64,000 nt of DNA from a virus, in the IMG/VR virus record IMGVR_UViG_3300028859_000009, positions 62,001-126,000 of that record; one strand, 5' to 3'. Positions 11,434 to 57,149 of the stretch are shown in pieces. The first letter of the stretch is position 1; each line of letters begins with the position of its first letter. The translations under genes and the position numbers were made by a program. The notes below the pieces were generated by a model. The model was not told the origin of the DNA. It saw nothing but the letters and a program-made list of their open reading frames with translations, and did no database searches.

Positions 11434-11859
11434 TTAAAATTTATTTTGAGTTCTTACAGTTTTCATATCAGGGTTATTTTTTTGTCTAACATTAGATTTT
11501 TTAAGAGTTTGATTTAATTTATCTATTTGTTGAACTGTCTTATCAAATTCTTGAACCTGAGTTTTATAATCTTGAACCTGAGTTTTAACTTCTTTTTGAT
11601 TTTCTGGCTCTAAATCTTGAATATTTTGTAATAATCCTTTTTCAATAACATCTTTCTTTGCTACAATATTTTGTTTTTGTTGTTCAGTGTTTTGTAATAT
11701 ATTATCTACATCATCTGTTGGTTTATGATTATTAGGCTGATTATTATTTTGAACTGACTTTATTTTTGCTTTATTAGATAATGAATTTATATAACCTTGT
11801 GAAGTATTAGGATTATTATTATCTTCTAAAAAAATTTCATAATTATTTATATGTTTCAT
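11434..11859 (-). CDS. small coiled-coil protein with capsid-targeting-like N-terminus
   Basis: The 141-residue product begins MKHINNYEIFLEDNNN, matching the recurrent N-terminal motif of this phage that resembles the T4 capsid targeting sequence (MKTYQEFIAEA type). The rest is Gln/Asn/Lys-rich coiled coil (KTQVQDYKTQVQEFDKTVQQIDKLNQTLKK). It overlaps the spacing of the two adjacent large genes and is likely an internal head or scaffold-like protein. Confidence 0.6.
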   Translation of the reverse strand: MKHINNYEIFLEDNNNPNTSQGYINSLSNKAKIKSVQNNNQPNNHKPTDDVDNILQNTEQQKQNIVAKKDVIEKGLLQNIQDLEPENQKEVKTQVQDYKTQVQEFDKTVQQIDKLNQTLKKSNVRQKNNPDMKTVRTQNKF

Positions 11860-11860
11860 A

Positions 11861-13009
11861 TTAAAATGTATTTTTATTTTTATTTTTATCTAATGTATTC
11901 TTTTTAGTTGAATTATATCCTCTATTCTTATTAAAATCATTTAAATTTTTTATTATATTTGTATTTTTTTGAGTACCTACATTTGATTTTTGTGTGATTG
12001 ATCCTGGTGCAACTGTTGTTCCTGATGTTGTTACTACTGTTGTTCCTGTTGCAACTGTTGTTACTGTTGTTCCTGATATTGGTACTACCTCTGTTATTGG
12101 TGCAACTGTTGTTCCTGATGTTGTTACTACTTCTGTTCTTGATGATTGATTAGTTGTTGTACTTGTTGATGTATTTGATTTATCCGATTTATTATATTTT
12201 TTTAATTTTGTTATATCAAATATAGGTTTATTATTTTCATCATATAAACTAATATTTTTATTTGTATCTGCATCAATCATACTTTTTATTTCACCATTCT
12301 CAATTTTAAATTCAACTGGCTGTTCTTTATACATATAAATATGTTCTTCGTCAATATCAGTCATAAGTTCAAATTCTTCTAATTTTAATTTCTTTTGATA
12401 TTCTTCTAAATTTGAACTATCTACATATTCTTTACTATTTATAATTTCTTTTAATTTTGAATTATAATCATTATCATCATTACTTTTAAAAAATGATATA
12501 ATACTAGGATTACCTTCTAATCCTTTTTTAACTAATTTAACTGGATATTTTTTATAAAAAAACATATCTCCTGCATCAGAATCTATAAATTTTTTTGTAC
12601 AATCTGCTGTTTTATCAGCGATAACTTCATTGATTGTTTGTTTATATTTAGAATATTTTGGATTTTTTTCTTTTTTATAAAGAGTTTTTAAAGTATTACC
12701 AGAAAAATTCAATTGATTTTCTGTTATTACCTTATTTATCCAAAAATCACTAATTTTTTTAATAATTTCTTCTCCTTTTAATTTATCAAAATTAGAAATT
12801 GAATTTTCAGGTTGTACATCATCTTCTTCTTTTTTTTCTTCACCTGAATCTTGTTCAGTTGTTATTTTTTTATCACCTGATACATCAGGATTGACTGAAT
12901 TGATTGATGTTGAATCATTAACTACATCATCTTTTTTTGTTGTAATAGGAGCTACCGCTGTTGATGTATCTTGTTCATTTAACATGAAATCTGAATATTT
13001 TTTTTTCAT
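11861..13009 (-). CDS. protein with capsid-targeting-like N-terminus and Thr/Val-rich linker
   Basis: The N-terminus MKKKYSDFMLNEQDTS ends in an L-N-E site like that cut by T4 prohead protease ([LI]-x-E). A folded middle (about 70-280) is followed by a low-complexity Thr/Ser/Val tract (about 285-350, repeats of TTSGTTVAP) and a basic tail. No family is recognised. The position next to two other proteins with similar N-termini supports a packaged internal protein. Confidence 0.6.
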   Translation of the reverse strand: MKKKYSDFMLNEQDTSTAVAPITTKKDDVVNDSTSINSVNPDVSGDKKITTEQDSGEEKKEEDDVQPENSISNFDKLKGEEIIKKISDFWINKVITENQLNFSGNTLKTLYKKEKNPKYSKYKQTINEVIADKTADCTKKFIDSDAGDMFFYKKYPVKLVKKGLEGNPSIISFFKSNDDNDYNSKLKEIINSKEYVDSSNLEEYQKKLKLEEFELMTDIDEEHIYMYKEQPVEFKIENGEIKSMIDADTNKNISLYDENNKPIFDITKLKKYNKSDKSNTSTSTTTNQSSRTEVVTTSGTTVAPITEVVPISGTTVTTVATGTTVVTTSGTTVAPGSITQKSNVGTQKNTNIIKNLNDFNKNRGYNSTKKNTLDKNKNKNTF

Positions 13010-13028
13010 TTTATATTTTATATTTTAT

Positions 13029-14987
13029 TTAAAATTTAGATGCAATTTTTTTCAAATTATCTAATACTACTTTATTATCCCAAAATTTAGGTGAACTTTC
13101 TTCATCTTTAAAAGCACAGAATTTCTTATCATTAGAATCAGTTATAAAATTTAATGCTTTCCACCAAAATTTAACTCTATCAAATTTACGGCAACTCTTA
13201 ATATTAATTTTATCTTTTTGATAATTGCTGGCTATTACACCATCAAAAGTATTACTAGGATTACTTAATTCCAAATCAGCTATAAATTTTTCACCTGATG
13301 GCTCACATAAAAACAATTTGTTTGTTTGGTTGTCAGAACTAATATAATTATTAAAAACCAAAAAACTATTACTTTGCCCATTAGTATTAGCACTTGTTCC
13401 TGATGGTAAACTTGCTCCTTTCTTTAACATAAAATATATATTAATTACATCATCTTTTTTTAAATTAACATTTGCAAAATTAGTGGATGAAAATAATTTT
13501 TCAAATTCTTTAAAATTTGAAGTGACAATATTATTTTCTATTTTCTTTATTGTTTGAGTAATCATAAACATATAGAATCCATTTGAAGGAGCAGAACTAA
13601 TCGGAGCTATTGTAGCATTATAATTAATTCCTTGATACTCAAATATACAATATTGCCAATTGCCTTCTAATCCTCCTATCTTAGTTTCAGATTGATTTAA
13701 TGAATCTCCTAAATTATCTCCAATTTTCAATGATTCAGAATCATTTTCAAACTTTTTTATTTCTTTATTTGCTTTTATTGTAGTTCCAGATAAATTTAAT
13801 CCTGAGCCATATGAACCTTCTCTAATATCAACACTCGGTATATCCATTAATAATGAAAAACTTGCATAAACTTTAGATAATTCTTTATCCCATCTCAATT
13901 TCAATTTTTCTGTTTCAACATTTTGTTCTTTTGTAACAAATAAATCTTTTGCTGTAAGTTGAATTACTTTTAAACTTTCAGAATTTACATTTGATGATAC
14001 TTCCTTCATTGCAGCATCATTTCTAGCAATTGTTTTTTCTATTTCTGCTAAATTTATAGAAGATATTGGCAAAGAAAAATCAGCTTCACGTTCTTTATAT
14101 TTATCTTGATCTCTTTTAGTTATAATACTTTTTACACTAACAAAACTTTTAATTATTGATTTCGGATTAGCCGCTGGACTAATCGTTGGTTTATTTGAAT
14201 CTATTCCTATTTTACCAGCACTAGAATCTGTTCTAAGTTTAGCTAATGCTTCATTTGTTACTGATGCTTCATCTGGTGCTTTTTCATTTTTAGTTTCTTT
14301 TTCTTTTAATTTTTTAACTATTTCATAATTAACATAAATTGCCTTTATCATATCAAGCTTCTTTTTTGATTCTTCATCACCTTCATCTGCACTTTTCTTA
14401 ATATCATCAAAAAATTGAATATTTTTTTTCAAAAACTCATATGTTTCAGTTTTCATTTTATCATATTCTTCCTTGTCAATAACTTCTTTTACATCGTTAA
14501 TACTTTTTATTATTGGTATATCATTATCTGTTTTTATTCCTGATTTTTTTATCAATTCTTCAACATCCTCTCCTTCTGAACCATTCATCATTTTATTAAA
14601 TAAATCTTCCCCTATATCTTTTTTAATAGATTCAAAAGAAACTTCATTTTCATTTTCATTTGATTCTTTATTTTCTTGATTTTCTTCTTCTGAAATCTTA
14701 CCTGATTGTAAATCTATTTTCTTTATAAAACAATATACAATAACACCACGTATTAATTCATTAATTAATTTTGCAATTAATCTATTAATAATGAAATTTT
14801 CTTTACTTTTTCTCCATAACCAACTTAAACCTTTGAATAATCCATTCATTAATTTTCCTAAATAAGTATCTTTCAAATCAGCATTATTAGCAAATCCATC
14901 TCTAGATCCAACTCCTCCTTGAGTTCCTCCAAATATTTCATTCATTTTTATAAAATCTTTACGACTTTGAATATTTTTAAATTTCAT
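13029..14987 (-). CDS. 652-aa virion-associated candidate protein
   Basis: The N-terminus MKFKNIQSRKDFIKMNE precedes IFGGTQGGVGSRDGF and again presents an M-N-E site. Residues about 45-90 are amphipathic/hydrophobic (LFKGLSWLWRKSKENF ... VIVYCFIKK), then come an acidic stretch and a long soluble region. It could be an internal or membrane-interacting virion protein. No enzymatic motif is seen. Confidence 0.6.
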   Translation of the reverse strand: MKFKNIQSRKDFIKMNEIFGGTQGGVGSRDGFANNADLKDTYLGKLMNGLFKGLSWLWRKSKENFIINRLIAKLINELIRGVIVYCFIKKIDLQSGKISEEENQENKESNENENEVSFESIKKDIGEDLFNKMMNGSEGEDVEELIKKSGIKTDNDIPIIKSINDVKEVIDKEEYDKMKTETYEFLKKNIQFFDDIKKSADEGDEESKKKLDMIKAIYVNYEIVKKLKEKETKNEKAPDEASVTNEALAKLRTDSSAGKIGIDSNKPTISPAANPKSIIKSFVSVKSIITKRDQDKYKEREADFSLPISSINLAEIEKTIARNDAAMKEVSSNVNSESLKVIQLTAKDLFVTKEQNVETEKLKLRWDKELSKVYASFSLLMDIPSVDIREGSYGSGLNLSGTTIKANKEIKKFENDSESLKIGDNLGDSLNQSETKIGGLEGNWQYCIFEYQGINYNATIAPISSAPSNGFYMFMITQTIKKIENNIVTSNFKEFEKLFSSTNFANVNLKKDDVINIYFMLKKGASLPSGTSANTNGQSNSFLVFNNYISSDNQTNKLFLCEPSGEKFIADLELSNPSNTFDGVIASNYQKDKINIKSCRKFDRVKFWWKALNFITDSNDKKFCAFKDEESSPKFWDNKVVLDNLKKIASKF

Positions 14988-15479: not shown

Positions 15480-15569
15480 AAAAATATTCTTTTTTCTTTA
15501 TATATAAAAATTATTTATTCCTTTAAATATATATTAAAATAATAAATTTAAAAATTTATATATAACATT

Positions 15570-16337
15570 ATGAAAATATTTAAATATAGTAGATATTCAT
15601 TTTTAAATGAAGTAAACCTAATAACAGAGGACTCTGAGTTCCAGCAATTTCAGTTTGGTATAGAACCAATGGGAACTGCTGGCGGAGGTGGTCAATTTGC
15701 TTTCGCTCAGGACCCAAGTGCATCATATTATAATTATCAGGACAGTCCCTATACTGATTTTTATGCAAGGCAATCTGGATTAGTATCTAACTTAGATAGA
15801 GTTATAAAAGGATTACGTGGTCAAAATGATTTAATTTATAAAGATAGTAATCCATTTTTGGAAGATATTGAATTATATGATAAAATTAAAATTTTAAGGA
15901 TATACGAGAACACTAGTTTAAAATTAGATGTGTTTATATCATTTGAATTTGACAAAAATGAATACTTTGGTGTATTTAGGAATTACAATGGAATAGTAAG
16001 ACCAACTCTTGAATCAGAAGTATATTTTGAGCCAGAATATTTATATAGAATTGATAGTGAATATAAACTAAAATTAAGTAATTATTTTTACAAAAAATTA
16101 GAAAAATGGTTTATTCCAGAAAAAGGTTTTTATAAAAATATGAAAAATGAAACTATATTAAAAAACAATATTGGTAAATTATACGAAATAAATGAAAATA
16201 AAGTAGTTGAAATTTTAGGATATAATATTAACAGTAATAATAAACCATATATTATAATAAAAGTAAATGAAGATACTTATCATATAGAAAATAATGATTA
16301 TTATTATTTTAAATGGAGATTTGAAAAAATGAAATAA
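15570..16337 (+). CDS. protein with capsid-targeting-like N-terminus
   Basis: The 255-residue product starts MKIFKYSRYSFLNEVN, with an L-N-E site, followed by a Gly/Ala/Tyr-rich low-complexity segment (GTAGGGGQFAFAQDPSASYY) and a folded C-terminal part that is Tyr/Lys-rich. A TTTATATATAA box sits just upstream of the ATG and a strong terminator follows the stop, so it is its own transcription unit. It may be an injected internal protein; function is unknown. Confidence 0.6.
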   Translation: MKIFKYSRYSFLNEVNLITEDSEFQQFQFGIEPMGTAGGGGQFAFAQDPSASYYNYQDSPYTDFYARQSGLVSNLDRVIKGLRGQNDLIYKDSNPFLEDIELYDKIKILRIYENTSLKLDVFISFEFDKNEYFGVFRNYNGIVRPTLESEVYFEPEYLYRIDSEYKLKLSNYFYKKLEKWFIPEKGFYKNMKNETILKNNIGKLYEINENKVVEILGYNINSNNKPYIIIKVNEDTYHIENNDYYYFKWRFEKMK

Positions 16338-22429: not shown

Positions 22430-23267
22430 AATAATAGTAAATTCGGCAAATATGAAGCATTTCAAATCATTAGGATACGAAAATCTTAAACCAGGAAATA
22501 AACTAACAATACCAGTAGAACATCTAAATAACGGTAGTCATTCAATGGTTACTGTTAAATGTGATGTCTGTGATACTGAAAAAGAATTAATGTATAGGTT
22601 CTATTTTAAAAATATCAAAAAACACAATACATATACATGCTCATCAAAATGTGGGCAAGAAAAAGTTAAAAAAACATACTTAGAAAAATATGGTGATGAA
22701 AATTATCGTAATCTTGAAAAACATAAAGAAACTTGTTTAGAAAAATATGAAGTGGAAAATCCATCTCAAGTTGAAAAATTCAAAGAGAAAAGAAAAGAAA
22801 CTATGATTGAGAGATATGGAACAGAATATTATTATCAAAGTGAAGATTTTAAAGAAAAATATGAACAGACAAGTCTAATAAATTATGGAACAATACATCC
22901 TATGTCTTCTGATAAAATGAAAGATATCATGAAAGAATATCATATTAAAAATGGATTTATTATAGAAACAGATGATTTTCAACTATATAGAAATAAAGTT
23001 TATAATTTAACAAAAAAATTAAAAAGTGAATTATTTTCTACATGGGACGGTAAAGATTATTATGATAATGAATATATTAAAGATAATTTTAATTTACCAG
23101 GTACGCATAAAGATTATCCTACTATTGATCATAAATATCCAATATCTGAGGGATTTAAAAATGGTATAAAAGAAGAAGAAATTGCAAAAATATCAAATTT
23201 ATGTTTTACTAAAAAATTTATAAATTCTCAAAAATACAATAAACTAATATATCATTTTTTTAAATAA
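22407..23267 (+). CDS. HNH-type homing endonuclease with zinc finger and KYG repeats
   Basis: The N-terminus carries CDVCDTE ... CSSKCGQ, a zinc-binding module, then three or four repeats of about 26 residues each with a K/RYG or NYG core (LEKYGDEN, LEKYEVEN, IERYGTEY, INYGTIH). The C-terminal domain has WDGKDYYDNEYI, YPTIDHKYPISEGF, and ISNLCFTKKFINSQK, which fits an HNH fold (DH, N, INSxK). It is a paralogue of the proteins at 24.3 and 31.5 kb. The tail overlaps the convergent gene at 23252 by 16 bases. Confidence 0.82.
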   Translation: MILTKEIEIIVNSANMKHFKSLGYENLKPGNKLTIPVEHLNNGSHSMVTVKCDVCDTEKELMYRFYFKNIKKHNTYTCSSKCGQEKVKKTYLEKYGDENYRNLEKHKETCLEKYEVENPSQVEKFKEKRKETMIERYGTEYYYQSEDFKEKYEQTSLINYGTIHPMSSDKMKDIMKEYHIKNGFIIETDDFQLYRNKVYNLTKKLKSELFSTWDGKDYYDNEYIKDNFNLPGTHKDYPTIDHKYPISEGFKNGIKEEEIAKISNLCFTKKFINSQKYNKLIYHFFK

Positions 23268-23893
23268 TTGCCAGTATCAGCACTATAAATATATTGATGA
23301 TTATAAATTGGTATAGAATTAAATGATTTTAATGCTATATAAACATCCATAATACACTCATTGGAGGCACCCCCAATCACAATAATTTTTTTATTTTTAA
23401 ATTTTTTAAATAATTCAACCAATTCTTCATTAACATAAAACCATTTATGATTATTACCTATGTATATTAAAAATTCATTCTTATCTTTTAATTTAAAAGC
23501 GTCTCCTTTTTTAAAATTGTTGTGTCTTGAATTGAATTCTTCAAGAGTTTTATTATCAAATATATGTGTTATCCATTCCTTAAATCCTCCTTTATATTTA
23601 GAATAAAATTTCTTAACTCCATATTTTTTTTCTATCAAATCAACTTCATTTTTAAATTTATAAGTAGGTTTAGATCCTTGATTTGAATCCCATATTTGAT
23701 AAACCCCTTTTCCTGATTCATCTGATGGAAAATCTAAACAATATTTATCTATTTTTTTAATAAATCCATTAGGATCAGTAGGAAAATATTTCTTGAAATT
23801 AGACTGTACATCAACAATTAATAATATTCCGTCATGATCAATTAAAGAGATGTTTTCATTAATCGTGAATTCTTTAAACTTAAATACCTCCAT
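23252..23893 (-). CDS. isochorismatase-fold protein with capsid-targeting-like N-terminus
   Basis: The N-terminus MEVFKFKEFTINENIS carries the recurrent motif with an I-N-E site. The body fits a cysteine hydrolase of the isochorismatase/nicotinamidase fold: GILLIVDVQSNF with Asp28, and VIGGASNECIMDVYIALKSF with a nucleophile-like Cys near 177. The metal-binding DxH motif of nicotinamidases is not evident, so substrate is unknown. A separate and much better PncA lies at 57.1 kb. Confidence 0.6.
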   Translation of the reverse strand: MEVFKFKEFTINENISLIDHDGILLIVDVQSNFKKYFPTDPNGFIKKIDKYCLDFPSDESGKGVYQIWDSNQGSKPTYKFKNEVDLIEKKYGVKKFYSKYKGGFKEWITHIFDNKTLEEFNSRHNNFKKGDAFKLKDKNEFLIYIGNNHKWFYVNEELVELFKKFKNKKIIVIGGASNECIMDVYIALKSFNSIPIYNHQYIYSADTGNYLKK

Positions 23894-24002
23894 AGCTTTA
23901 TATAAATTTTTTATTTTATTTTTTATATATAAATATATTAAAATAAAAAAGTCAACGAATTAGCACTTCCATAATAAACAATAACTTTATTTGTGTTAAT
24001 TT

Positions 24003-25349: not shown

Positions 25350-25453
25350 ATTCTTTTTTATTTGTATATATAAAAAAAAGTTATTCAATAAAATTGTTTC
25401 AGAAAATAGACAATTTAAAATTTATATATAATAAAAAATAATAATTTGTAATT

Positions 25454-26206: not shown

Positions 26207-26215
26207 CAAAGACTC

Positions 26216-26247
26216 AAAAATCACTAATTTTTTAGTGATTTTTATTT
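26216..26247. terminator. bidirectional terminator
   Basis: AAAAATCACTAA and TTAGTGATTTTT form a hairpin between convergent genes. Confidence 0.85.
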
Positions 26248-27546: not shown

Positions 27547-27551
27547 ATGGT

Positions 27552-27977
27552 TTAATCTTTTCTTCCTGTTACATATCTTTCTTTTCTTGTTTTGTTTATA
27601 TTTGAAAAAGTGATATATTTATCATCTATCTTAATATCAAAGCTATAAAGATTTGTATCATTACTTAATAATTGTTTTATTTTTTCTATTTTGATATTAG
27701 ACCTTGCTTCAAAATCAGTAATAACAAATTTCAATCCATCATTTTCATCTAATTTATTTTTAAATTCTGGTAATCTTAAAAATTCCATTATTCTTTCTAC
27801 TAATTTGCCAAATTTATCTGATCCTTTTCTATATTCACCAAAATATTGTTTGAAATTTTTTATTCGTGGTTCTTCACCATAATTTGTTCCAGCAAAAGGA
27901 ATTTTACCTTCTGGGCCTGCAACAGATGGAAAATAAAAATTATGATCTGTTGATTTAGTATTAAAGCTTGTTATCAT
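27552..27977 (-). CDS. hypothetical protein (141 aa)
   Basis: The product starts MITSFNTKSTDHNFYFPSVAGPEGKIPFAG and is soluble. It overlaps the upstream gene by one base and precedes the membrane protein by five bases, so the three form a transcript. No family is recognised. Confidence 0.6.
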   Translation of the reverse strand: MITSFNTKSTDHNFYFPSVAGPEGKIPFAGTNYGEEPRIKNFKQYFGEYRKGSDKFGKLVERIMEFLRLPEFKNKLDENDGLKFVITDFEARSNIKIEKIKQLLSNDTNLYSFDIKIDDKYITFSNINKTRKERYVTGRKD

Positions 27978-28309
27978 TATATGTTGAATTTTTTTGAATT
28001 TTTTAATATTTTCATATTGTTGATAAGTTTACTAAAATTAGTTACACTTGCGTACATAACATAATTAATTATTTGAAATCTTGCATCAGAATCATTTAAA
28101 ATGTTACACAGTTCATTATATTCTACAAAATTATCATTTGTAATTGACATACTAATTTTAAAAGATAGACAAAATCTGACATTTGTGTCAATTTTAAAAT
28201 TTATAATTCCTAATTTATCATCCCACAATTCTAAAAACAAAGATTTCACTTTATTTACAAATATATCGTAATCTTCTTGATTATTTTCATTAAATTTCTG
28301 TATTATCAT
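27977..28309 (-). CDS. cassette protein with N- and C-terminal signature peptides
   Basis: The 110-residue product begins MIIQKFNENN (F-N-E site) and ends KNSKKFNI, carrying both terminal signatures that recur in the 42-47 kb cassettes. The middle is unrecognised. It sits between a hypothetical gene and the amidoligase-like gene in one operon. Confidence 0.6.
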   Translation of the reverse strand: MIIQKFNENNQEDYDIFVNKVKSLFLELWDDKLGIINFKIDTNVRFCLSFKISMSITNDNFVEYNELCNILNDSDARFQIINYVMYASVTNFSKLINNMKILKNSKKFNI

Positions 28310-28316
28310 AAATAAA

Positions 28317-29732: not shown

Positions 29733-29784
29733 TAATAATTTTATATTTTATTGTATATATAAAAAAAATATTGTTATTTTTTAA

Positions 29785-32848: not shown

Positions 32849-33381
32849 TTCATATATGCTTCAGTGGGGGTGCCACAGGATCAGATCTTTTGTGGAGTTT
32901 TGAATCTATAAAAAAAGGATATAAAGTCATAGATTTTTCTTTTGAAGGCCACAACACAAAATCAGAGAATAAATATATTCTATCTAGCAATCAGCTAAAA
33001 GAAGGCTATGAGCACATTAAAATAGCAAATAACACATTAAATAGAAATGTAACTAACGTATCATCTTATGTAAAAAATCTAATATCTAGAGATTGGTTTC
33101 AAGTAAAAAAATCTGATACAATTTTTGCCATTGGTATTTTACAGACAGAAAATACAGTTCTCGGTGGTACAGGCTGGGCTGTACAATTAGCCATAGATAA
33201 TCACAAACCAATATATTTATTTGAGCAAAATATAAATCAATGGCATTATTTTGATTATGAATCAAACGCATTTGAAATTTATGAAGGAATTCCAAAATTA
33301 ACTGAAAAGTTTGCAGGAATTGGTACAAGAAATATAAATCAAAATGGAATAGATGCTATTATAAGTTTATTTAAAGATTAA
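32845..33381 (+). CDS. SLOG-family (YpsA/DprA-like) nucleotide-binding protein
   Basis: The Rossmann-like fold of SLOG proteins is shown by CFSGGATGSD (residues 5-14) and VLGGTGWAVQLAIDNHKPIYLFEQ with W ... FAGIGTRNINQNGIDAI near the end. SLOG domains bind nucleotide-derived ligands; phage members are of unknown role. It is translated from the strong Shine-Dalgarno site and coupled to the RHH gene. The 3' end overlaps a convergent gene by 11 bases. Confidence 0.72.
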   Translation: MIHICFSGGATGSDLLWSFESIKKGYKVIDFSFEGHNTKSENKYILSSNQLKEGYEHIKIANNTLNRNVTNVSSYVKNLISRDWFQVKKSDTIFAIGILQTENTVLGGTGWAVQLAIDNHKPIYLFEQNINQWHYFDYESNAFEIYEGIPKLTEKFAGIGTRNINQNGIDAIISLFKD

Positions 33382-33709
33382 ATTTATCAGATAAATTTTT
33401 AATTTTCTGTTCTTTAATTTCATCAGGTGTAGCTAATATTAAATCTGCATCAGAAAACGGCATAGTATAATCAAAGTTACTAGTATAATATTTTTTTATA
33501 TAATCTAATATTTCAATAGGAATATTTTCATATTTTACATTATAATATTTAAAATTATCATGTTTATCATAATCTATGGATTCAATTTGTCCGATATTAT
33601 TCTCAAAAAAGTTTTTCAAATCTTTTGAATATGTCAATTCATGACATCTTACATAATCACCTACGTTAAATCCAGAATTTAAATCTTCATAATGTTTTAA
33701 AAATTTCAT
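33371..33709 (-). CDS. cassette protein with N- and C-terminal signature peptides
   Basis: The ATG at 33709 gives MKFLKHYEDLNSGFNVGDYVRCHE and an end of KIKNLSDKFNL. The body GDYVRC ... FFENNIGQIESID ... VKYENIP is homologous in pattern to the proteins at 43.7 and 44.4 kb. It is thus a dispersed member of that small family. A TTATATATAA box lies upstream, overlapping the terminator at 33738-33768. Confidence 0.65.
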   Translation of the reverse strand: MKFLKHYEDLNSGFNVGDYVRCHELTYSKDLKNFFENNIGQIESIDYDKHDNFKYYNVKYENIPIEILDYIKKYYTSNFDYTMPFSDADLILATPDEIKEQKIKNLSDKFNL

Positions 33710-33737
33710 ATTAAAAATTATTTTATAACTTATATAT

Positions 33738-33768
33738 AAAAAAATCCACAATAAATTGTGGATTTTTT
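33738..33768. terminator. terminator
   Basis: AAAAAATCCACA and TGTGGATTTTTT form a hairpin after the gene ending at 33771 on the minus strand. Confidence 0.8.
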
Positions 33769-37168: not shown

Positions 37169-37435
37169 TTATTTTATTATTTCAAATTTTATTATTTCAA
37201 ATTCATTTATATTAATATCATCTGTTGATGGTCTATCATAGAACATACTAAATTGAGCATGTACTGAATCACTATAAGCCAATTTAGCTTCTTCTTCAGT
37301 TTCTACAAACCATATAGGAGAATATTTATTAGTTGTAAATAAATATTCAGTACCAAATTCACTATCATCACTATAAATAACATTAAATCTTATAATTTTA
37401 TTAGTTTCTTTGTGTATAAATGTCCAAACTTCCAT
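37169..37435 (-). CDS. small conserved phage protein (cargo in split locus)
   Basis: The 88-residue product (MEVWTFIHKETNKIIRFNV ... YLFTTNKYSPIWFVETEEEAKLA) resembles a small protein I recall from other large phages. It overlaps the upstream gene by 35 bases and ends five bases before the intein C-fragment. It has no link to polymerase or intein motifs and so is cargo within the interrupted gene. Confidence 0.6.
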   Translation of the reverse strand: MEVWTFIHKETNKIIRFNVIYSDDSEFGTEYLFTTNKYSPIWFVETEEEAKLAYSDSVHAQFSMFYDRPSTDDININEFEIIKFEIIK

Positions 37436-38057
37436 ATAATTCTTTTATTTTTTCTATTAATTCATCATCAAATTTTAGATTTTCATATTTCAATTTTTCT
37501 AAAATTTCAAAAATATAATTATTAGATAATTTTTTAGAAATCACTCCTGATAAATTATTTGATGTAAATGAATATAAATCATCATCCAGCAATAAATTAT
37601 ACCAAATATTATAAGCATCTAAAGATGAAAACTTATTTGAAGTTATAAAACCGAAATCTAAAATCACCAATTTATATAATTTATATCCTAATGTGTATCC
37701 TTTTAAATTTACTGGCATTCCTTTTTCAAAATCTATTAAATTTAATCTTGTTTCATCAACAGAAAAATCGAATTCCAAGTCTAATGATATTTTATTTTCT
37801 ATCTTTAAATTTAATTTTTTTAAAATCTCAATAAACCAAAAATCTGGTTTAATATAAATTCCATATGAATGCTTTTTATAATAAAAATTACTTACATCAT
37901 ATTTAGATATTTCATTTTTAATATCAATATAATCGTCAGATATTATAACTCCTTCTTTTGACTTTTTTTTAATATATGTATCATCATTTTTTATAATATC
38001 ATTCAATTTAGACTTATTAAATTTTTCATAAGTTTTTATAAAAATTGATTTTTTCAT
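37401..38057 (-). CDS. hypothetical protein (218 aa), cargo in split locus
   Basis: The product begins MKKSIFIKTYEKFNKSKL, a weaker version of the recurrent N-terminal motif, and is otherwise unrecognised. It overlaps the homing endonuclease gene by four bases (ATGA). It may have been carried in with the endonuclease or inserted afterwards. Confidence 0.55.
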   Translation of the reverse strand: MKKSIFIKTYEKFNKSKLNDIIKNDDTYIKKKSKEGVIISDDYIDIKNEISKYDVSNFYYKKHSYGIYIKPDFWFIEILKKLNLKIENKISLDLEFDFSVDETRLNLIDFEKGMPVNLKGYTLGYKLYKLVILDFGFITSNKFSSLDAYNIWYNLLLDDDLYSFTSNNLSGVISKKLSNNYIFEILEKLKYENLKFDDELIEKIKELYGSLDIYTQRN

Positions 38058-39217: not shown

Positions 39218-39256
39218 ATGGCAATACTTTTATCTCTATATATAAATATTAAAATA

Positions 39257-42465: not shown

Positions 42466-42500
42466 AAAAAGAGATGATATATTTTATATCATCTCTTTTT
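42466..42500. terminator. bidirectional terminator
   Basis: AAAAAGAGATGATATA and TATATCATCTCTTTTT form a 16-bp stem between convergent genes. Confidence 0.9.
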
Positions 42501-43165
42501 TATATATTAAATTTATTTGTACTATTTGATAATTCTACTAATCTTGAAATTTTTTCATCATCTAAAGTTAATGTTTTAAGATAGTCATTAAATTTTTCAA
42601 TAAATTCTTCATTTATATCATACCATCTTTTATCTAATTTATCTAAATAATCATTTCTATTATAATTATTCTCGTTATATTGTTCATCATCTCCATAGTA
42701 GCAATCAAATTTAATACTATCTAAATCAAAATCTTTCATTATTGAATACACAGTTTTTCCTAATTTTTCTGGTATATGTTGTTCGATTTTTAAATATTTA
42801 AATAACATAATTAATTTCATATGAATATTTGCATTATTATATTTTCTACCAAATCCTCTTGAATTTGAAGAGCTAGCAAATCCGTTTTCAAAATATTGAA
42901 TATGACCTCCATTACATACTTGTCTATTATAATTACATAGAAGAATACAAAAATAAGGTAGTATACCATATTTTTCTTTCACAATATCTAAAAATTTTTC
43001 ATAATCAATATTTGATGTAGATTCTATATAAGAAACGTCAGTTATAGCGTCAAATACATTTCCTTCTGAAAAATCTTTATTTTTTAATAATAATGTTTTT
43101 AATTCTCCTTCATTTTTAAATAAAATAGGAAAATTAGTTCCTTCATACATTTTCAAGTGTTTCAT
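42500..43165 (-). CDS. DUF4375-like protein with signature termini
   Basis: The N-terminus is MKHLKMYEGTNFP and the end is NSTNKFNI, both recurrent signatures. The body contains YNRQVCNGGHIQYFENGFASS, the NGGxxQ[YF]xxN motif typical of DUF4375 (DMP19-like) proteins. Function of that family is unknown. It is the last of five tandem cassettes on the minus strand. Confidence 0.62.
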   Translation of the reverse strand: MKHLKMYEGTNFPILFKNEGELKTLLLKNKDFSEGNVFDAITDVSYIESTSNIDYEKFLDIVKEKYGILPYFCILLCNYNRQVCNGGHIQYFENGFASSSNSRGFGRKYNNANIHMKLIMLFKYLKIEQHIPEKLGKTVYSIMKDFDLDSIKFDCYYGDDEQYNENNYNRNDYLDKLDKRWYDINEEFIEKFNDYLKTLTLDDEKISRLVELSNSTNKFNI

Positions 43166-43166
43166 A

Positions 43167-43676
43167 TTATAAATTAAATTTTGTTACTGAATCATCAAAT
43201 TCTTTTTTCTTCAAATAATCTTTATATTGTTCTGGATATTTAGATATTATTCTATTGATATCGTACGTATTTAAAAAACCTAATGTTTCATGTCCTTGTT
43301 TATTTTTACAATATAGTGATGCTCCAGCTTCTAATAATATTCTCATTGATGCTAGGTCACTATTTATAGCAGCTCTCATTATTGGAGTATCACCGTTATC
43401 ATTTTTAGCTTCAATATCAGCACCAACCTCTATAAGTTTATAAATTAAATCAAATGAACATATGGTAGCAGCATATGTCAAAGGAGTCTGTCCATTTTTA
43501 GCTTTAATATTTGGATATGCTCCCTCATCTAATAAATTTATCATTTTTATTGATGATTCTTTGCTTCTATTATCAATAATATTTTCATCAATAATTTTGA
43601 TCAATTCGTTAGTAGCTTCAATCTTTATAATAAAGTCATCTGAATAATCTTCAAATTTTTTAAAATTAGTTATCAT
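43167..43676 (-). CDS. ankyrin-repeat protein with signature termini
   Basis: The N-terminus MITNFKKFEDYSDD and the end DDSVTKFNL are the cassette signatures. Residues about 60-150 form ankyrin repeats: GAYPNIKAKNGQTPLTYAA, EVGADIEAKNDNGDTPIMRAA and EAGASLYCKNKQGHETLGF. Ankyrin repeats bind proteins, so it may target a host protein. If the N-terminus is a packaging signal, it would be injected with DNA. Confidence 0.78.
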   Translation of the reverse strand: MITNFKKFEDYSDDFIIKIEATNELIKIIDENIIDNRSKESSIKMINLLDEGAYPNIKAKNGQTPLTYAATICSFDLIYKLIEVGADIEAKNDNGDTPIMRAAINSDLASMRILLEAGASLYCKNKQGHETLGFLNTYDINRIISKYPEQYKDYLKKKEFDDSVTKFNL

Positions 43677-43990
43677 AAATTAAATTTATTTGATTGTATT
43701 ATATATTCTAATTCATCTTTATTTTTTGATATATATTTTATTTCATCTAATGACATATTTCTTTCATTGTGTGAGAAATATTTTTCTAAATTTTTTGGTA
43801 TTTCTTCATAATGTATCACATATGGCTGCATGAATTCTGTGTCATATCTAATATATTCACCTATATTATTTGATGTAAAAGTAATAATTTCAGAATCCGA
43901 ATATGACTCTGATTCATTACACACTACCAAATCTCCAATTTCTGGCTCATCTTTACAAATTTCTTCAAATAATTTAAAATTAGTTATCAT
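43673..43990 (-). CDS. cassette protein, GDxVxC family, copy A
   Basis: MITNFKLFEEICKDEPEIGDLVVCNES at the start and ELEYIIQSNKFNL at the end. The sequence is a clear paralogue of the gene at 44350-44664. It overlaps the ankyrin gene with an ATGA junction. The GDLVVC ... FTSNNIGEYIRYD core suggests a small beta-barrel; function is unknown. Confidence 0.65.
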   Translation of the reverse strand: MITNFKLFEEICKDEPEIGDLVVCNESESYSDSEIITFTSNNIGEYIRYDTEFMQPYVIHYEEIPKNLEKYFSHNERNMSLDEIKYISKNKDELEYIIQSNKFNL

Positions 43991-44014
43991 AAATTAAATT
44001 TTTTTATATTATTA

Positions 44015-44353
44015 TTAAAATTCAATTTCATCATAATAATCTTGAATTTCTTCTGGTGTGCATACTAATTTACCCATAAATATATTATTATCATAGCTTT
44101 CTGATGTTGGGTACGGATACCATGTATAAGAATTTTCATACTCTGGATGTTTTACTATTGTAATTGTTTCTAAATCTGTGAAATTATCTCTAGCTGTAAA
44201 AACTTTATTCTTACGAAGTCTAATCCAATCTTTAATTATAATCTCTGGCATTCCAATTTTTTTCAGAGATATATAAAAATCTGGCATTTTTACAGGCATA
44301 TTCCAAAGTAATTTTTTATCAGAATCTTCAAATTTTTTAAAATTAGTTATCAT
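44015..44353 (-). CDS. cassette protein (112 aa)
   Basis: It starts MITNFKKFEDSDKK and ends YYDEIEF, so only the N-terminal signature is present. The body has NKVFTARDNFTDLETITIVKHPEYENSYTWYPYP. It overlaps the next cassette by four bases. No family is recognised. Confidence 0.6.
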   Translation of the reverse strand: MITNFKKFEDSDKKLLWNMPVKMPDFYISLKKIGMPEIIIKDWIRLRKNKVFTARDNFTDLETITIVKHPEYENSYTWYPYPTSESYDNNIFMGKLVCTPEEIQDYYDEIEF

Positions 44354-44664
44354 AAATTAAATTTATTTGATTGTATTATATATTCTAATTCATCTTTATT
44401 TTTAGACCAATATTTTATTTCATCAATTGACATATTTCTTTCATCATCACCTGAAAAATAACTTTTCATATTTTTTGGTGTATAATCATATTTTATTATA
44501 TAAGGATAAGCCTCTCCGTCATCATATCTAATAAATTTACCGATATTAGTTGATGTAAATATAGTATTAATATCAGCATAGTCTACTTCTTCACATATAA
44601 CAAAATCTCCAATTTCTATTGATTTTTCGTTTATTGATTCAAATTTTTTAAAATTAGTTATCAT
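44350..44664 (-). CDS. cassette protein, GDxVxC family, copy B
   Basis: It starts MITNFKKFESINEKSIEIGDFVICEE and ends ELEYIIQSNKFNL. It matches copy A at 43673-43990 over nearly its whole length, with the last 50 bases almost identical, evidence of recent duplication or recombination. An ATATATAA box lies upstream; this is the first gene of the cassette operon. Confidence 0.65.
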   Translation of the reverse strand: MITNFKKFESINEKSIEIGDFVICEEVDYADINTIFTSTNIGKFIRYDDGEAYPYIIKYDYTPKNMKSYFSGDDERNMSIDEIKYWSKNKDELEYIIQSNKFNL

Positions 44665-44715
44665 ATTATTATATATAAAATATTTTTTAGAAAATAAATA
44701 TTAATATATATAATT

Positions 44716-45455: not shown

Positions 45456-45992
45456 ATGATAAATGAAATAAACAATATTAAAAAATTCACAGAATGGTTT
45501 CCGTTATATGAATTTCAAATACCTAATGTAAAATTAGATGAGTTCTTCTATAACATAAAATTATCAACTTCTAAATACACTAAAATTCTTGTTGATTATT
45601 TTAAAACATATGAACAATATATTGATTTAATGGATAAAAAGAAGCATCAATATAAGATTAATGATATGTCAGGCGATATTTTAGGTACTGAAAAAGTAGT
45701 TTTCAAATGTAGCATTTTTGATAAAGAAGATATTGAAAATATCAGAGAAAATTTAGTAACTTTTGCATTATCAGAATTTTATTCAGATATTCCTGATTCA
45801 TTAAATGTTTTTGGTATAATGATGAAACCTTTATCGTTTATTGATAAAGAAAAAGTTAAATATTCATTTCAGCAAACTATAACTTTTGATACAACAATAA
45901 ATGTTATATCAACATTAGGTAATATGGTATATGATAATGAATTTAATGGATATTATATTTGGACTGATAAAAAAGATAAATTAACTGAATGA
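45456..45992 (+). CDS. hypothetical protein (178 aa)
   Basis: The product begins MINEINNIKKFTEWFPLYE, partly like the signature motif, and is otherwise soluble and unrecognised. Its end overlaps the next gene by four bases. Confidence 0.55.
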   Translation: MINEINNIKKFTEWFPLYEFQIPNVKLDEFFYNIKLSTSKYTKILVDYFKTYEQYIDLMDKKKHQYKINDMSGDILGTEKVVFKCSIFDKEDIENIRENLVTFALSEFYSDIPDSLNVFGIMMKPLSFIDKEKVKYSFQQTITFDTTINVISTLGNMVYDNEFNGYYIWTDKKDKLTE

Positions 45993-46528
45993 TAATTAAA
46001 AGATTTTTTCAATTAAATGAAAATAATAGCGTTGATAATGATATAAAAAAGGTATTATCAAATAAAGATGATTTATATGCAAAAATTCTAAATTATATGA
46101 AATCACATTTAGATTATTATGATTTTGAAATTGAACTTGATCATCTTGGTGATGTTTGGAATCCTAATTTTTTAAGTGGTGGAGAATTAAATATTGAAAT
46201 TTTCGATAAAAATGAATCTAATGGTGATAATTATGAATTTAATGGTGAGGAATACCAAGCATTACTAGACGAAACAAATTTAACTAAGTCAGAAGTAACA
46301 AATATAATTAATGATTACAATGATTTATTATCATCTTTGACTGATTACTTAAAACAAATCAAAGTATTAAAAACAAATGAATATGCTGATTTTGCATATT
46401 TTGAAGATGATAATACACTTAATATATTGTATCTTGATGAAAAAGAAAGGGGAGATTATTATATTTTATCAAATAACGAATATAATGATTTCTTATTATA
46501 TATAGAATCAAAAAAATTTAATATTTAA
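45989..46528 (+). CDS. cassette protein with signature termini
   Basis: Begins MIIKRFFQLNENNSVDN (L-N-E site) and ends YIESKKFNI. The middle is acidic (ELDHLGDVWNPNFLSGGELNIEIFDKNE) and near its end has YYILSNNEYNDFLLYIE, resembling the end of the preceding membrane protein (LTNNEYNEFLKLIQK). No function is assigned. Confidence 0.6.
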   Translation: MIIKRFFQLNENNSVDNDIKKVLSNKDDLYAKILNYMKSHLDYYDFEIELDHLGDVWNPNFLSGGELNIEIFDKNESNGDNYEFNGEEYQALLDETNLTKSEVTNIINDYNDLLSSLTDYLKQIKVLKTNEYADFAYFEDDNTLNILYLDEKERGDYYILSNNEYNDFLLYIESKKFNI

Positions 46529-46790: not shown

Positions 46791-47066
46791 ATGAAAATTA
46801 AAAAATTTGAAAAATACGAGCATAACATTGAACCAATAATATATGATCCAGAATATAAATTGATGAAAATTGATGAAAATGGAGACTCAAATGAAATTGA
46901 TATCAATGTAAATCCATTTGATTTAGATGAGATTGTTAGTTGTTATTTAGATATGAAAGGATATGATAATAATTTGTGGATAAAAAAAATAACAGAAGAA
47001 ATAGTAGACTTAAATATGATACCTGAAATAAAAATTCATCTATCTGCTAAAAAATTCAATATATAA
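46791..47066 (+). CDS. cassette protein with signature termini (91 aa)
   Basis: It begins MKIKKFEKYEHN and ends LSAKKFNI, so both signatures are present around a short acidic body. It is the last of the plus-strand cassette genes before the HAD-like gene. Function is unknown. Confidence 0.6.
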   Translation: MKIKKFEKYEHNIEPIIYDPEYKLMKIDENGDSNEIDINVNPFDLDEIVSCYLDMKGYDNNLWIKKITEEIVDLNMIPEIKIHLSAKKFNI

Positions 47067-51738: not shown

Positions 51739-52485
51739 ATGTTGATAAATAATTTTAATGATTTCAATAATTTTAATAATATTAAAATTATTGAAAATAA
51801 TAATATATTTCCATCAATAAGACATTTATCGTCTTATGAATCTGCAATTTCTATACTAGAAAATAAAAATTTTATGAGTAGACAGGAGTTATTAAATAAT
51901 AACATTAATATAAATAAAAAAAATAAAAAATTAGAATTTGATAATAAATGGTGGATAGAAAGAAAAAATATTGAATTAGAAAAATTCAAAACTGAAAATT
52001 TAATATTTTGTACTCCAGATTGGTATAATACATATGATCACGAAACTGGACATGGACCAGTTATGTTTTATTTTAAACCATCTATATTTGAAGATTATAA
52101 AGTCACATTTACTTTATTAGATAATATAAGTAGTGAAATAAAAAAAATATACGATAAAAATGAATTATCTGATATATATTATAACATATTAAATAAAAAC
52201 AAAAAATCTAAGCTATTATTAGAAGCAAAAACAATACTAACAAATTTAGATATTACAAATATTGGTTCAATGTATAATACTAGTATGGGTAAAATATTTA
52301 TAGAAGAAGGTAAATTTTATTATAAATATTCAGAAGTTCAAATACACTCAAATAAAATTCCAATAGAATATATAAGTAAAATAAAATTAACTAATAATTA
52401 TTTAGATTATTCAGAAGAAGATAATAATATAAAAGAAAAATTCATTTCAATTTGCAAAAAATTAAAAATTAAAATTATAATATGA
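51739..52485 (+). CDS. possible ADP-ribosyltransferase-like protein
   Basis: The N-terminus MLINNFNDFNNFNNI resembles the signature motif. The body has RHLSSYESAISILENKNFMSRQEL, an H-x-T-like start followed by an IL...L.S pattern; FCTPDWYN ... GPVMFYFKP; and a late EVQIHSNKIPIEYISKI. This order is similar to DarT-type ADP-ribosyltransferase folds, with a late Glu. It is a weak, by-eye similarity. The gene overlaps the metalloprotease gene by four bases. An ATATATAA box lies upstream. Confidence 0.4.
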   Translation: MLINNFNDFNNFNNIKIIENNNIFPSIRHLSSYESAISILENKNFMSRQELLNNNININKKNKKLEFDNKWWIERKNIELEKFKTENLIFCTPDWYNTYDHETGHGPVMFYFKPSIFEDYKVTFTLLDNISSEIKKIYDKNELSDIYYNILNKNKKSKLLLEAKTILTNLDITNIGSMYNTSMGKIFIEEGKFYYKYSEVQIHSNKIPIEYISKIKLTNNYLDYSEEDNNIKEKFISICKKLKIKIII

Positions 52486-53324
52486 TAACAACATTTAAAA
52501 TATTTGAAAGACTTGGTATTGATAATACTATACTCAAAATGTCAGAAAAAATATATTCTGGTTTTTTAGAAAATTATAACAAAGAGAAAGAATTCACAAA
52601 TTCATCAGATACTTTTTATACTGATATAACAGATTTAAAAAAAGAATTTAATTTTAAATTTAACCCAGATAAAATAGGATGTCAAATAAATTACAATAAT
52701 GCAGAAAGTAGAGGTGGATTTACAATAGAGATTGGAGTTATAAATAGATTATCAAATGATGAAATTAAGAAACCATATGAAATTAAAAGTGAAATTCTAC
52801 ACGAAGTTCAACATCTGGTTAATGCATTCAGATATTCAAAAACAAAAACATCAAAAACAAAAACAATAGAAAAAAAATCTTTTATAAATAAGTATGAATT
52901 TATGAATATTTTTGATCATGATTTAATGGGGTCATTTAGTAATACAGATAGTAATACATATGGTATGAAAAGATCAGTAATAAATTTTATGAAATGTGAC
53001 TTATTCACAGAGCAATATAAAAAAATAATAGCATATTTTTATTTAGCAGATAAAAATGAAATGATGTCTAAATTACATGAATTTTTACCAGAAATTAAAA
53101 ATATTAAAAATGTTAAAGATATAGATAACTCATATAAGATTTCATTTTATAAAGATATGTCAAATTTCAAAATAGACATTAATAGTTGTACAATAGAAGA
53201 AAAATACAAACTATCTAAAATATTCAATCCAAAAGATGCTAAACGAGTAGAGAGTTATTTTAATAATAAAAGTAAAACATTAATAAAAAAAATTCATAAA
53301 CTAGCAGATTTTAGAACAGAATAA
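52482..53324 (+). CDS. HExxH zincin with signature N-terminus
   Basis: The 280-residue protein begins MITTFKIFERLGI and contains SEILHEVQHLVNAFRYS (HExxH, near residues 108-112), the zinc-binding helix of metallopeptidases. The rest is unrecognised; the third zinc ligand is not obvious. It may be an injected protease. It is translationally coupled to the ART-like gene. Confidence 0.6.
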   Translation: MITTFKIFERLGIDNTILKMSEKIYSGFLENYNKEKEFTNSSDTFYTDITDLKKEFNFKFNPDKIGCQINYNNAESRGGFTIEIGVINRLSNDEIKKPYEIKSEILHEVQHLVNAFRYSKTKTSKTKTIEKKSFINKYEFMNIFDHDLMGSFSNTDSNTYGMKRSVINFMKCDLFTEQYKKIIAYFYLADKNEMMSKLHEFLPEIKNIKNVKDIDNSYKISFYKDMSNFKIDINSCTIEEKYKLSKIFNPKDAKRVESYFNNKSKTLIKKIHKLADFRTE

Positions 53325-55593: not shown

Positions 55594-55641
55594 AACTCAT
55601 GATAGAAAAAATGATTAATAAAGTTTAATCTATAAACATAA

Positions 55642-55669
55642 AAAATCAGGCTCATAACAACCTGATTTT
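55642..55669. terminator. terminator
   Basis: AAAATCAGG and CCTGATTTT form a stem with an 11-base loop downstream of the gene at 55767-56150. Confidence 0.65.
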
Positions 55670-55766
55670 CAATTACTATTATAAAAAGATGCAAGATCAT
55701 GATATATATACTATATATAATATATAATTTACTTCATAATTGAATGATAATCAACAATATACTATA

Positions 55767-56150
55767 TTAAAAAGATTCTAATATTTCTATTAAATCCTTT
55801 AATTTTATATATTCAATACCGTAATCGTCATAATTCCCGTAATATTCCCATTCATGTTTAGTTGTTGATTCTAATGATTCTTCTATTTTTTTAAATTGAA
55901 GATATGTTATTTCTGGTTTTAATATTTCTAAAACCATATCAAGTGCTTTGAATTTTGGTTTATCTTCTCCATCATATTCTTCTGACTCATCATCATTCCA
56001 ACAATTACCGCCTGATGATCCGCCTTCTGACCAACGCATATACACAATTAATTCTTTAATACCATCACAGCCATATGGTTCATTGAAAACTCCCTGATCT
56101 GATGGGCATTTATTATTTATTTTATTTATTTGTTCATTAGTTAATTTCAT
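55767..56150 (-). CDS. hypothetical protein (127 aa)
   Basis: The ATG at 56150 (MKLTNEQINKINNKCPSDQ) is chosen over a TTG six bases upstream. The centre reads ELIVYMRWSEGGSSGGNCWNDDESEEYDGEDKPKF. The protein is acidic with a Gly/Ser-rich patch. No family is recognised. Confidence 0.6.
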   Translation of the reverse strand: MKLTNEQINKINNKCPSDQGVFNEPYGCDGIKELIVYMRWSEGGSSGGNCWNDDESEEYDGEDKPKFKALDMVLEILKPEITYLQFKKIEESLESTTKHEWEYYGNYDDYGIEYIKLKDLIEILESF

Positions 56151-56222
56151 ATTCAATATTTAAAAATTATAATTGCAAATGTAATAAATTATTTTCAAAT
56201 AAAAAATATTATTTCAAATTAT

Positions 56223-56253
56223 TTTGTTATTATCAAAATTAGTTGTATATTTG
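56223..56253 (+). promoter_or_regulatory. Bacteroidota-type promoter
   Basis: TTTG at 56223-56226 and TATATTTG at 56246-56253 are separated by 19 bp. It drives the plus-strand gene run that starts at 56282. Confidence 0.78.
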
Positions 56254-56281
56254 CAAACTATAAATTTTAAAAAATAAAAAT

Positions 56282-56620
56282 ATGGAAAATTATTTAGGTA
56301 AAATATTAGATGCGTCAATAGTATCATCAGGTAGAAAAGTAAAAAACGGTACATATATTACTTTTGAAACACATGTTAATATCACAATTGGTCAATATGT
56401 AGATATTGTATTTGATAATAAAATACATCATTTTGAAGTAAAAGATATTTCAATTAAAGATGTAAAATTAGTAGTAGATGCTTGTGAGATAGGATATTAC
56501 GCAACAAAATTTGATAACGATAAAAACTTTGATTTGAGAAAATTGATTGATGTTGATATTGTACTTATTACTGATAATGATAAAATTAAAAAAATTAAAG
56601 AAGAATCTTGTTGGTGCTAA
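56282..56620 (+). CDS. hypothetical protein (112 aa)
   Basis: The product (MENYLGKILDASIVSSGRKVKNGTYITFETHVNITIGQYVDIVFDNKIHHF) is beta-rich and starts the NAD-related operon. No family is recognised. Its expression should be early, given the host-type promoter. Confidence 0.6.
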   Translation: MENYLGKILDASIVSSGRKVKNGTYITFETHVNITIGQYVDIVFDNKIHHFEVKDISIKDVKLVVDACEIGYYATKFDNDKNFDLRKLIDVDIVLITDNDKIKKIKEESCWC

Positions 56621-56630
56621 ATTAAATATT

Positions 56631-56798
56631 ATGATAAAAAATATATTGTTAAATAAAAAAGATTTTGAAAAACTAACTAAAGGTGAAGTGATCGAAAAAG
56701 ATGGTATTAAAATAGCTATTCAAGATATTGGATATCAAACTATGATTAATATCTTAGATGAGAATTATTATTTAAATGATCGAAAAAAATATTTTTAA
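56631..56798 (+). CDS. small hypothetical protein (55 aa)
   Basis: The ATG at 56631 (MIKNILLNKKDFEKLTKGEVIE) is preferred because it begins after the upstream stop. The next ATG immediately follows its stop. The small beta-rich product has no recognised family. Confidence 0.5.
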   Translation: MIKNILLNKKDFEKLTKGEVIEKDGIKIAIQDIGYQTMINILDENYYLNDRKKYF

Positions 56799-57149
56799 AT
56801 GAAATTAGAAAAATATCTTGAATATCGTAAAATTTTTGAAAATAATTATAAAGAACAAATAAAAGTTGGAAAACATGATTTAGAATTTGTAAATTTATAT
56901 GATTTGAAAAATGATATTTCAAGATTTAAAAAATTTATATTTATTTATAGTTATGATAATAATTCTTTATTTACTAATACAGTATCTTCAATAGATACTA
57001 GAAAAAGATTTATAATTAAAAATAACAAACCAGCAATAAAAATCAAAATAGATGTTACAAATGTGCATTTAATTGATGAATGGTCTGAGAGATTTGAAAA
57101 AGTATTAGAATTTTATAATAAAAATATTAATAATAAAAAATATGAATAA
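56799..57149 (+). CDS. hypothetical protein (116 aa)
   Basis: It begins MKLEKYLEYRKIFENNYKEQ, a longer variant of the signature motif with an F-E site, and ends in NKNINNKKYE. It overlaps pncA by eight bases. No function is assigned. Confidence 0.55.
   Translation: MKLEKYLEYRKIFENNYKEQIKVGKHDLEFVNLYDLKNDISRFKKFIFIYSYDNNSLFTNTVSSIDTRKRFIIKNNKPAIKIKIDVTNVHLIDEWSERFEKVLEFYNKNINNKKYE

Follow-up and report, generated by a model that had tools for sequence, protein, structure and literature searches.

The internal proteins of phage T4 (IPI, IPII, IPIII and Alt) are among the closest known parallels to the locus reported here. They carry a short N-terminal stretch with two aromatic residues three positions apart and an I-x-E site (PMC9026906; PMC3012670). 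Within this tag, residues 4 and 7 (the aromatics) govern targeting, and residues 8 and 10 govern processing; the T4 protease cuts after L/I-x-E, and an Asp at position 10 stops cutting but not targeting (PMC9026906). Alt is processed at both ends (PMC9026906). A second parallel is provided by the ejection and inner-body proteins of SPN3US and phiKZ, in which many proteins are packaged in the head and a prohead protease cuts after x-x-E, as would be the case here; their propeptides, however, usually exceed 100 residues, and a shared short tag comparable to this one has not been described for them (PMC5694885; PMC13282480). Finally, the Rak2-like phages (CBB, GAP32) and Tenacibaculum phage PTm1 have a homologous protease-scaffold protein. 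Searches of openly accessible journal articles turned up no account of huge phages with dozens of such tags.

The stretch of DNA analysed here (the window, 64,000 nucleotides) corresponds to positions 62001-126000 of a viral contig of 140,730 bases (IMGVR_UViG_3300028859_000009). The best INPHARED match of one window protein is in LR756501, an uncultured 735-kb phage, presumably identical with the 735-kb genome that Al-Shayeb et al. reported as the largest of any phage at that time (PMC7162821). Blast matches in LR756501 exist for many ORFs of the record, several of them above 50% identity. Closer relatives are found in IMG/VR: (i) G001, a 330-kb contig with 92% identity at the neck protein; and (ii) G004 and G005, contigs of 155 and 345 kb, respectively. 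All counts given below depend on mechanically called ORFs and arbitrary score thresholds, and the relatives are not independent of each other. The neck gene of the record lies at 25.4 kb of the window. When the ORFs of the record were compared by blast, the portal, prohead protease and capsid proteins of LR756501 found no match; Pfam S77 (PF03420) and Gp23 (PF07068) gave no match on the record either, but these are weak tests whose controls were equally silent and, in consequence, the absence of protease and capsid on the record rests on the blast comparison with LR756501. As to other contents, the window has seven tRNA genes clustered at 130-928 and a DNA polymerase that, judged by eye, is apparently split into two frames, 39257-40147 and 36192-37163 (region 36192-40147), with intein-like ends at the break and a homing-endonuclease-like gene between them; the C-terminal part matches phrog_262.

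The first-pass annotation of the window had described a single, recurrent T4-like N-terminus on many unrelated proteins. Its recurrence is borne out: the eleven starts that it quoted, most of them on the minus strand, all open reading frames where they had been placed (MKFLKHYE begins at an internal ATG of gene 33371-33709), and 12 of the 93 window ORFs match the motif, against a mean of 2.3 and a maximum of 6 in 200 shuffles of the same residues. Instead of a single N-terminus, two classes can be distinguished: (i) class A, xFxxF[ILM]NE, in which [ILVM]-x-E comes after a pair of aromatics spaced three apart (e.g., MKKKYSDFMLNE in the window, MKKYIEFINE in LR756501); and (ii) class B (MITNFKKFE, MKHLKMYE, MKYIKKFE), with E directly behind the second aromatic. 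The tagged proteins are the following, PWM being the matrix described further below:

11434..11859, minus strand: class A protein MKHINNYEIFLE, PWM 8.8 bits; tag kept in the G001 orthologue, MKHINNYEFFLE
11861..13009, minus strand: class A protein MKKKYSDFMLNE, PWM 10.7 bits; G001 orthologue MKKTYSDFILNE; C-terminal third of the body rich in Thr/Ser
13029..14987, minus strand: class A protein of 652 aa, MKFKNIQSRKDFIKMNE, PWM 6.3 bits; G001 orthologue MELKNIQNRKDFIKMNE
15570..16337, plus strand: class A protein MKIFKYSRYSFLNE, PWM only 3.7; relatives L076 and L081 retain the [FL]NE site
23252..23893, minus strand: class A protein MEVFKFKEFTINE; Glu13 of the tag invariant in six orthologues, in which the remainder of the tag drifts
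27977..28309, minus strand: tagged at both ends, MIIQKFNE ... KKFNI, PWM 7.6; C-terminal tag
33371..33709, minus strand: class B, both ends, MKFLKHYE ... DKFNL
37401..38057, minus strand: possible tag MKKSIFIKTYEKF, PWM 10.0, without clear Glu site
42500..43165, minus strand: class B, both ends, MKHLKMYE ... NKFNI, which the PWM fails to detect; body weakly similar to DMP19
43167..43676, minus strand: class B, both ends, MITNFKKFE ... TKFNL, PWM 9.1; body of ankyrin repeats (Ank_2, E 2.6e-11)
43673..43990, minus strand: class B, both ends, MITNFKLFE ... NKFNL; paralogue of 44350..44664
44015..44353, minus strand: class B, N-terminal tag only, MITNFKKFE, PWM 9.8; G001 orthologue tagged at both ends
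44350..44664, minus strand: class B, both ends, MITNFKKFE ... NKFNL, PWM 8.3; first gene of its array
45989..46528, plus strand: both ends, MIIKRFFQLNE ... KKFNI, PWM 7.0
46791..47066, plus strand: both ends, MKIKKFEKYE ... KKFNI
51739..52485, plus strand: tag MLINNFNDFNNF with aromatics F6 and F9, without clear Glu site, PWM 10.9
52482..53324, plus strand: class B, N-terminal tag only, MITTFKIFE; HE[IV]QH in the body

These bodies are unrelated only in part, given the paralogues 43673-43990 and 44350-44664 and a weak relative at 33371. The ankyrin protein proposed at the outset is confirmed by its Ank_2 match, and so is the HExxH motif of 52482..53324, which is conserved, together with the tag FKIFE, in an orthologue at 39% identity. 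On the other hand, neither the isochorismatase fold nor the possible ADP-ribosyltransferase could be confirmed by any family or structure library searched; the body encoded at 23252..23893 has conserved DVQ and GGA..EC and is isochorismatase-like by eye only, and the structure models of the 51739 and 52482 proteins (pLDDT 43 and 40) are too poor for a fold search. In the 23252-23893, 51739 and 52482 families, orthologues hold the key tag positions while other letters drift: F6 and F9, for instance, are invariant in three orthologues of the 51739 protein whose starts otherwise differ. The gene at 13029..14987 adjoins one for a 995-aa protein, whose LR756501 relative has a similar neighbourhood. 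Untagged proteins of the same window include a PepF-type oligoendopeptidase (TIGR00181) at 48530-50329 and a nicotinamidase-like protein at 57142-57813, which matches NF008623 below the curated cut-off.

A loose class A regular expression does not separate tags from background in the AT-rich G001 (27 matches versus 26.7 after shuffling) and, hence, the tag counts rest on a PWM. It was built by expectation-maximisation with LR756501 as the sole source, from residues 2-23 of the 1005 ORFs called mechanically in that genome. With the first-pass annotation's pattern as seed, the PWM converges on K-K-[FY]-x-x-[FY]-[IL]-[NK]-E in about 27% of the LR756501 ORFs; random, unseeded starts reach the same motif (IKKFxEFxNE / KKFxEFINE) in about 25%. 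In LR756501, 219 of the 1005 ORFs match, versus 28 shuffled and 20 of 887 internal sequences. Among sequences unseen in training, the whole record has 32 matches in 231 ORFs (about 8-10 shuffled; 6/194 internal), G001 has 73/566 versus 20.6 shuffled, and G005 has 47/303 versus 11.8. Bacteroidota control genes remain at background (15/985, versus 184/713 in LR756501 under the same length limit). The T4 capsid-targeting string MKTYQEFIAEA, quoted when the pattern was first noticed, scores 16.2 bits. Columns 2 and 5 of the PWM are F/Y, matching the aromatic spacing of T4 positions 4 and 7, and the residues that govern targeting and processing of the T4 tag are the conserved columns of the motif. 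In 84 of the top 148 LR756501 tags, the expected place is occupied by Glu, with I, L or V two positions before in 66 of these 84. Since codons within the LR756501 tags match genome usage for most residues, the constraint on the tag acts at the protein level.

A link with head assembly comes from the relatives. In LR756501, the genes for portal, a protease-scaffold fusion and the capsid protein lie side by side, and their families were identified. The scaffold part consists of consecutive 14-residue repeats (e.g., KSIDYSEYIAENLD), eleven of which score at or above threshold in the PWM learned from N-termini; their motif, YSEYIAEN, is spaced 14 residues. About 40 non-redundant relatives have 9-16 scaffold sites each, mostly 14 residues apart; the aromatic pair, the hydrophobic residue and E were built into the pattern used for these sites and, therefore, only their number and spacing are informative. 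Furthermore, the capsid proteins of the relatives have a conserved [MLIV]NE/N at the border of the leader and the gp23-like core, and the start of the protease carries a similar [LI][NSQ]E site in most of them. The gp21-type prohead protease and its scaffold are present in LR756501 and in relatives such as G004, and found no match on this record or in G001, both of which are fragments. Elsewhere in LR756501 (L006:11314-11850, minus strand), there is a second, short copy of the prohead-protease domain (178 aa, phrog_207), which ends in DPYGEENWSE.

As regards the proposed [LI]-x-E cut, class A carries such a site and most class B tags do not. The class B consensus in G001 is MKY[IL]KKFE, the third-last residue being Lys or Thr in the majority, and only a minority of class B tags, such as MITNFKLFE, fit L/I-x-E; the hydrophobic residue and the aromatic pair are present. 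Class B has, in addition, a C-terminal counterpart. Eight window proteins tagged at the N-terminus also end in KFN[LI], and in G001 an ending of the K[FY]N[LI] type is found on 77 of the 84 class B proteins. Altogether, 104 ORFs of G001 end in K[FYLM][NG][LIMVF], where 2.2 would be expected, and all but one of these have the narrower K[FY]N[LIMV]; the 103 proteins form 60 body clusters, of which 50 are singletons and two are large paralogue families, with 23 and 13 members. The ending differs by lineage, being KYNL in G004 and KLGL[LM] in G005. Given that no scaffold or capsid protein among those checked ends in KFN[LI], the C-terminal tag is not copied from them. Class B genes stand in arrays with ATGA overlaps, and the last genes of the arrays, often located before terminator-like hairpins, retain KFN[LI]; the idea that the ending is a mere leader of the next gene was rejected, as terminal genes retain it. 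The codons of KFN[LI] are biased (AAC makes up half, versus 14% genome-wide, and ATA is far above ATT) and, for this reason, part of its conservation may lie at the DNA level or come from shared descent.

Tagged genes also have a common upstream context. The element TTTAATATATAG is enriched about 15-20 bases before the start codon of tagged LR756501 genes, whereas a T4-like TATAAATA shows no enrichment upstream of tagged genes. A model of TTTAATATATAG trained on LR756501 was tested on genes with an upstream gap in the other genomes. The element was found on 16/23 tagged genes versus 39/202 in G001 (operon-first genes, mostly class B), on 14/19 versus 35/133 in G005, and on 10/16 versus 27/98 in this record; in the smaller sample of G004 it was not significantly associated with tagged genes. 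It also occurs at the portal, neck and terminase genes, a tail fibre gene and several large putative structural genes; none of the sheath, protease and capsid genes scored for it has it, and it is missing from 16 of 17 metabolism, replication and translation genes, the exception being a PhoH-like gene. These gene classes suggest that the element is a late promoter. Its occurrences in the window are:

15555..15565, plus strand: promoter-like element TTTATATATAA, upstream of 15570..16337
23923..23933, minus strand: promoter-like element TTTATATATAA, upstream of 23252-23893
25422..25432, plus strand: promoter-like element TTTATATATAA, preceding neck gene 25454-26206 (structural comparison inside the window)
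33729..33740, minus strand: promoter-like element TTTATATATAAG, upstream of 33371-33709
44669..44680, minus strand: promoter-like element TTTTATATATAA, upstream of the 42500-44664 array

The tagged genes are scattered across the whole LR756501 genome and turn over fast; in some orthologous pairs, only one member has the tag. Several are located in structural neighbourhoods, e.g., near the neck gene (452-456 kb) and on the downstream side of the large genes at 53-61 kb. The bodies of the tagged proteins include a glutamyl-tRNA synthetase (GltX) domain from residue 27, a dephospho-CoA kinase (CoaE) from residue 14, both beginning behind the tag, a DeoC-type aldolase, a methyltransferase, radical SAM proteins and PPK2. 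Beyond these genomes, three more huge phages (634-642 kb) have the repeat scaffold and 8, 7 and 9 tags per 50-kb stretch, versus 4, 3 and 0 in one shuffle each. Lak-A1, PTm1 and CBB have related proteases and, in the sampled stretches, little or no excess of tags; all these samples are small. Unlike the phages described here, Rak2-like phages and PTm1 show no clear tag excess in sampled 50-kb stretches. The scaffold repeat is missing in the scaffold read of Lak-A1 and of PTm1, whose own repeat differs. In the first 50 kb of CBB the tag is at background and the two virion proteins read there are untagged and, hence, the published virion proteome of this phage (PMC5259590) serves only as a negative comparison.

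In general terms, the system resembles the T4 internal proteins in that (i) the bodies are diverse and only the tag is conserved; (ii) a gp21-type protease is present, here in relatives; and (iii) the tagged genes have an upstream element in common with structural genes. It differs in that (i) T4 has a handful of such proteins while LR756501 has about 190 above chance; (ii) the scaffold carries the tag as its own tandem repeat; (iii) there is a second tag class without cleavage site and with a C-terminal partner motif; and (iv) the upstream element is TTTAATATATAG, not TATAAATA. The tag would then be a T4-like packaging tag in a new, much expanded form. Capsid targeting, as claimed in the first-pass annotation, is well supported by sequence for class A, since the motif coincides with the T4 tag, the scaffold repeat and the propeptide boundary of the relatives, a protease of the gp21 kind is encoded in those relatives and the upstream element is shared with structural genes. 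For class B it is plausible; these proteins are probably targeted without cleavage, as the aromatic pair is kept and the cleavage spacing is mostly missing, and the processing of T4 Alt at its two ends is a loose parallel to their two-end tags.

It is considered fairly likely that the N-terminal stretch is a capsid-targeting tag that copies one scaffold unit. The tag would imitate one unit of the repeat-built scaffold (YSEYIAEN, every 14 residues); tagged proteins would be made late in infection, together with virion proteins; the two aromatics of the tag would dock on the scaffold core, and the tagged proteins would be trapped in the prohead, where the class A tag would be cut along with the core. 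The sequences show the motif, its likeness to the scaffold repeat and propeptide site of relatives, the upstream element and the constraint on the tag, whereas late expression, docking, packaging, cleavage, injection and any action on the host are inferred; injected effectors would be a plausible role for the tagged proteins. Given that the tag copies the scaffold repeat and resembles the T4 loading signal, the variety of proteins that this huge phage and its relatives pack and inject is probably far greater than known.

Where tagged proteins are encoded near structural genes, they may be components of the head and not effectors. The broader version of this idea, namely that the tag targets the prohead core and that the tagged proteins are mainly structural or inner-body parts of a very large head, with few injected effectors, is unlikely: it agrees with the structural neighbourhoods of several tagged LR756501 genes and with the position of window 11434-14987 beside the 995-aa head-cluster-like gene, but not with bodies such as tRNA synthetase, CoaE, aldolase, methyltransferase, radical SAM and ankyrin, nor with genome-wide genes of fast turnover. 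Tagged proteins are very numerous for the contents of a virion, which counts against capsid targeting and would fit a tag that directs proteins, via a different coiled-coil partner, to some other phage-made structure such as an assembly site or a replication compartment. Huge phages build compartments in the cell; nevertheless, it is the head scaffold and the T4 packaging tag that the motif matches, and such a destination is judged very improbable.

For class B and its KFN[LI] ending, a relic of gene-cassette shuffling has to be considered, in which the conserved ends would serve recombination or translational coupling instead of targeting. The ATGA overlaps of the arrays, the paralogue families of 23 and 13 members and the biased codons, which suggest constraint on the DNA or a recent shared origin, all point that way. 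However, the last genes before terminator-like hairpins keep the ending, 50 of the 60 body clusters are singletons, and the KYNL and KLGL[LM] of related genomes are similar as protein and different as DNA; class A, with its unbiased codons, would moreover be left unexplained. A relic of this kind is unlikely. Still less probable, to the point of being hardly credible, is that the N-terminus is an expression feature unrelated to heads, either an AT-rich start for late messages or a stability signal: although the position of the tag coincides exactly with the beginning of late-type genes and Lys, Asn and Ile codons abound in it, its codons follow genome usage, untagged structural genes with the same upstream element have no such N-terminus, and the motif recurs within the scaffold protein, far from start codons.

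If capsid targeting is true, the handful of internal proteins of T4 would become a genome-wide principle, which would help to explain the many small, lineage-specific genes of huge phages. It would also provide (i) a means of predicting from sequence which uncharacterised genes of uncultured phages do their work during injection, the stage at which one expects anti-defence proteins; and (ii) a simple suggested mechanism for capsid-targeting sequences, i.e., imitation of one scaffold repeat. A packaged tRNA synthetase or CoA kinase, if found, would raise the question of what is gained by delivering metabolic enzymes with the DNA. As a tentative extension, about which doubt somewhat prevails, the largest phages could have a general protein-loading system, with a portable copy of the scaffold repeat on a fifth to a quarter of their genes, more than 100 enzymes or effectors per virion, fast gene turnover and a lineage-specific C-terminal address (KFN[LI], KYNL, KLGL, perhaps DPYGEExW).

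Other recurrent termini were observed in these genomes. When 103 tagged LR756501 proteins were aligned, the consensus was confined to the tag, besides traces of DPYGEExW. This motif is found on about 92 of the 1005 LR756501 proteins (L006-L020, e.g., record 475399-476339 and 554555-555792), often right behind the N-terminal tag or at the extreme C-terminus, and on 48/219 tagged versus 44/786 untagged proteins. At least six clustered proteins with differing bodies in L003 (record 54968-59383) share another recurrent N-terminus, MKIR[NST]GFVSNSSSSSF[VI]. Finally, many small ORFs (window 57823-58621; record 6930-8821 and 22783-30213) have a C-terminus like RKxKLxKLN, which is distinct from the KFN[LI] ending.
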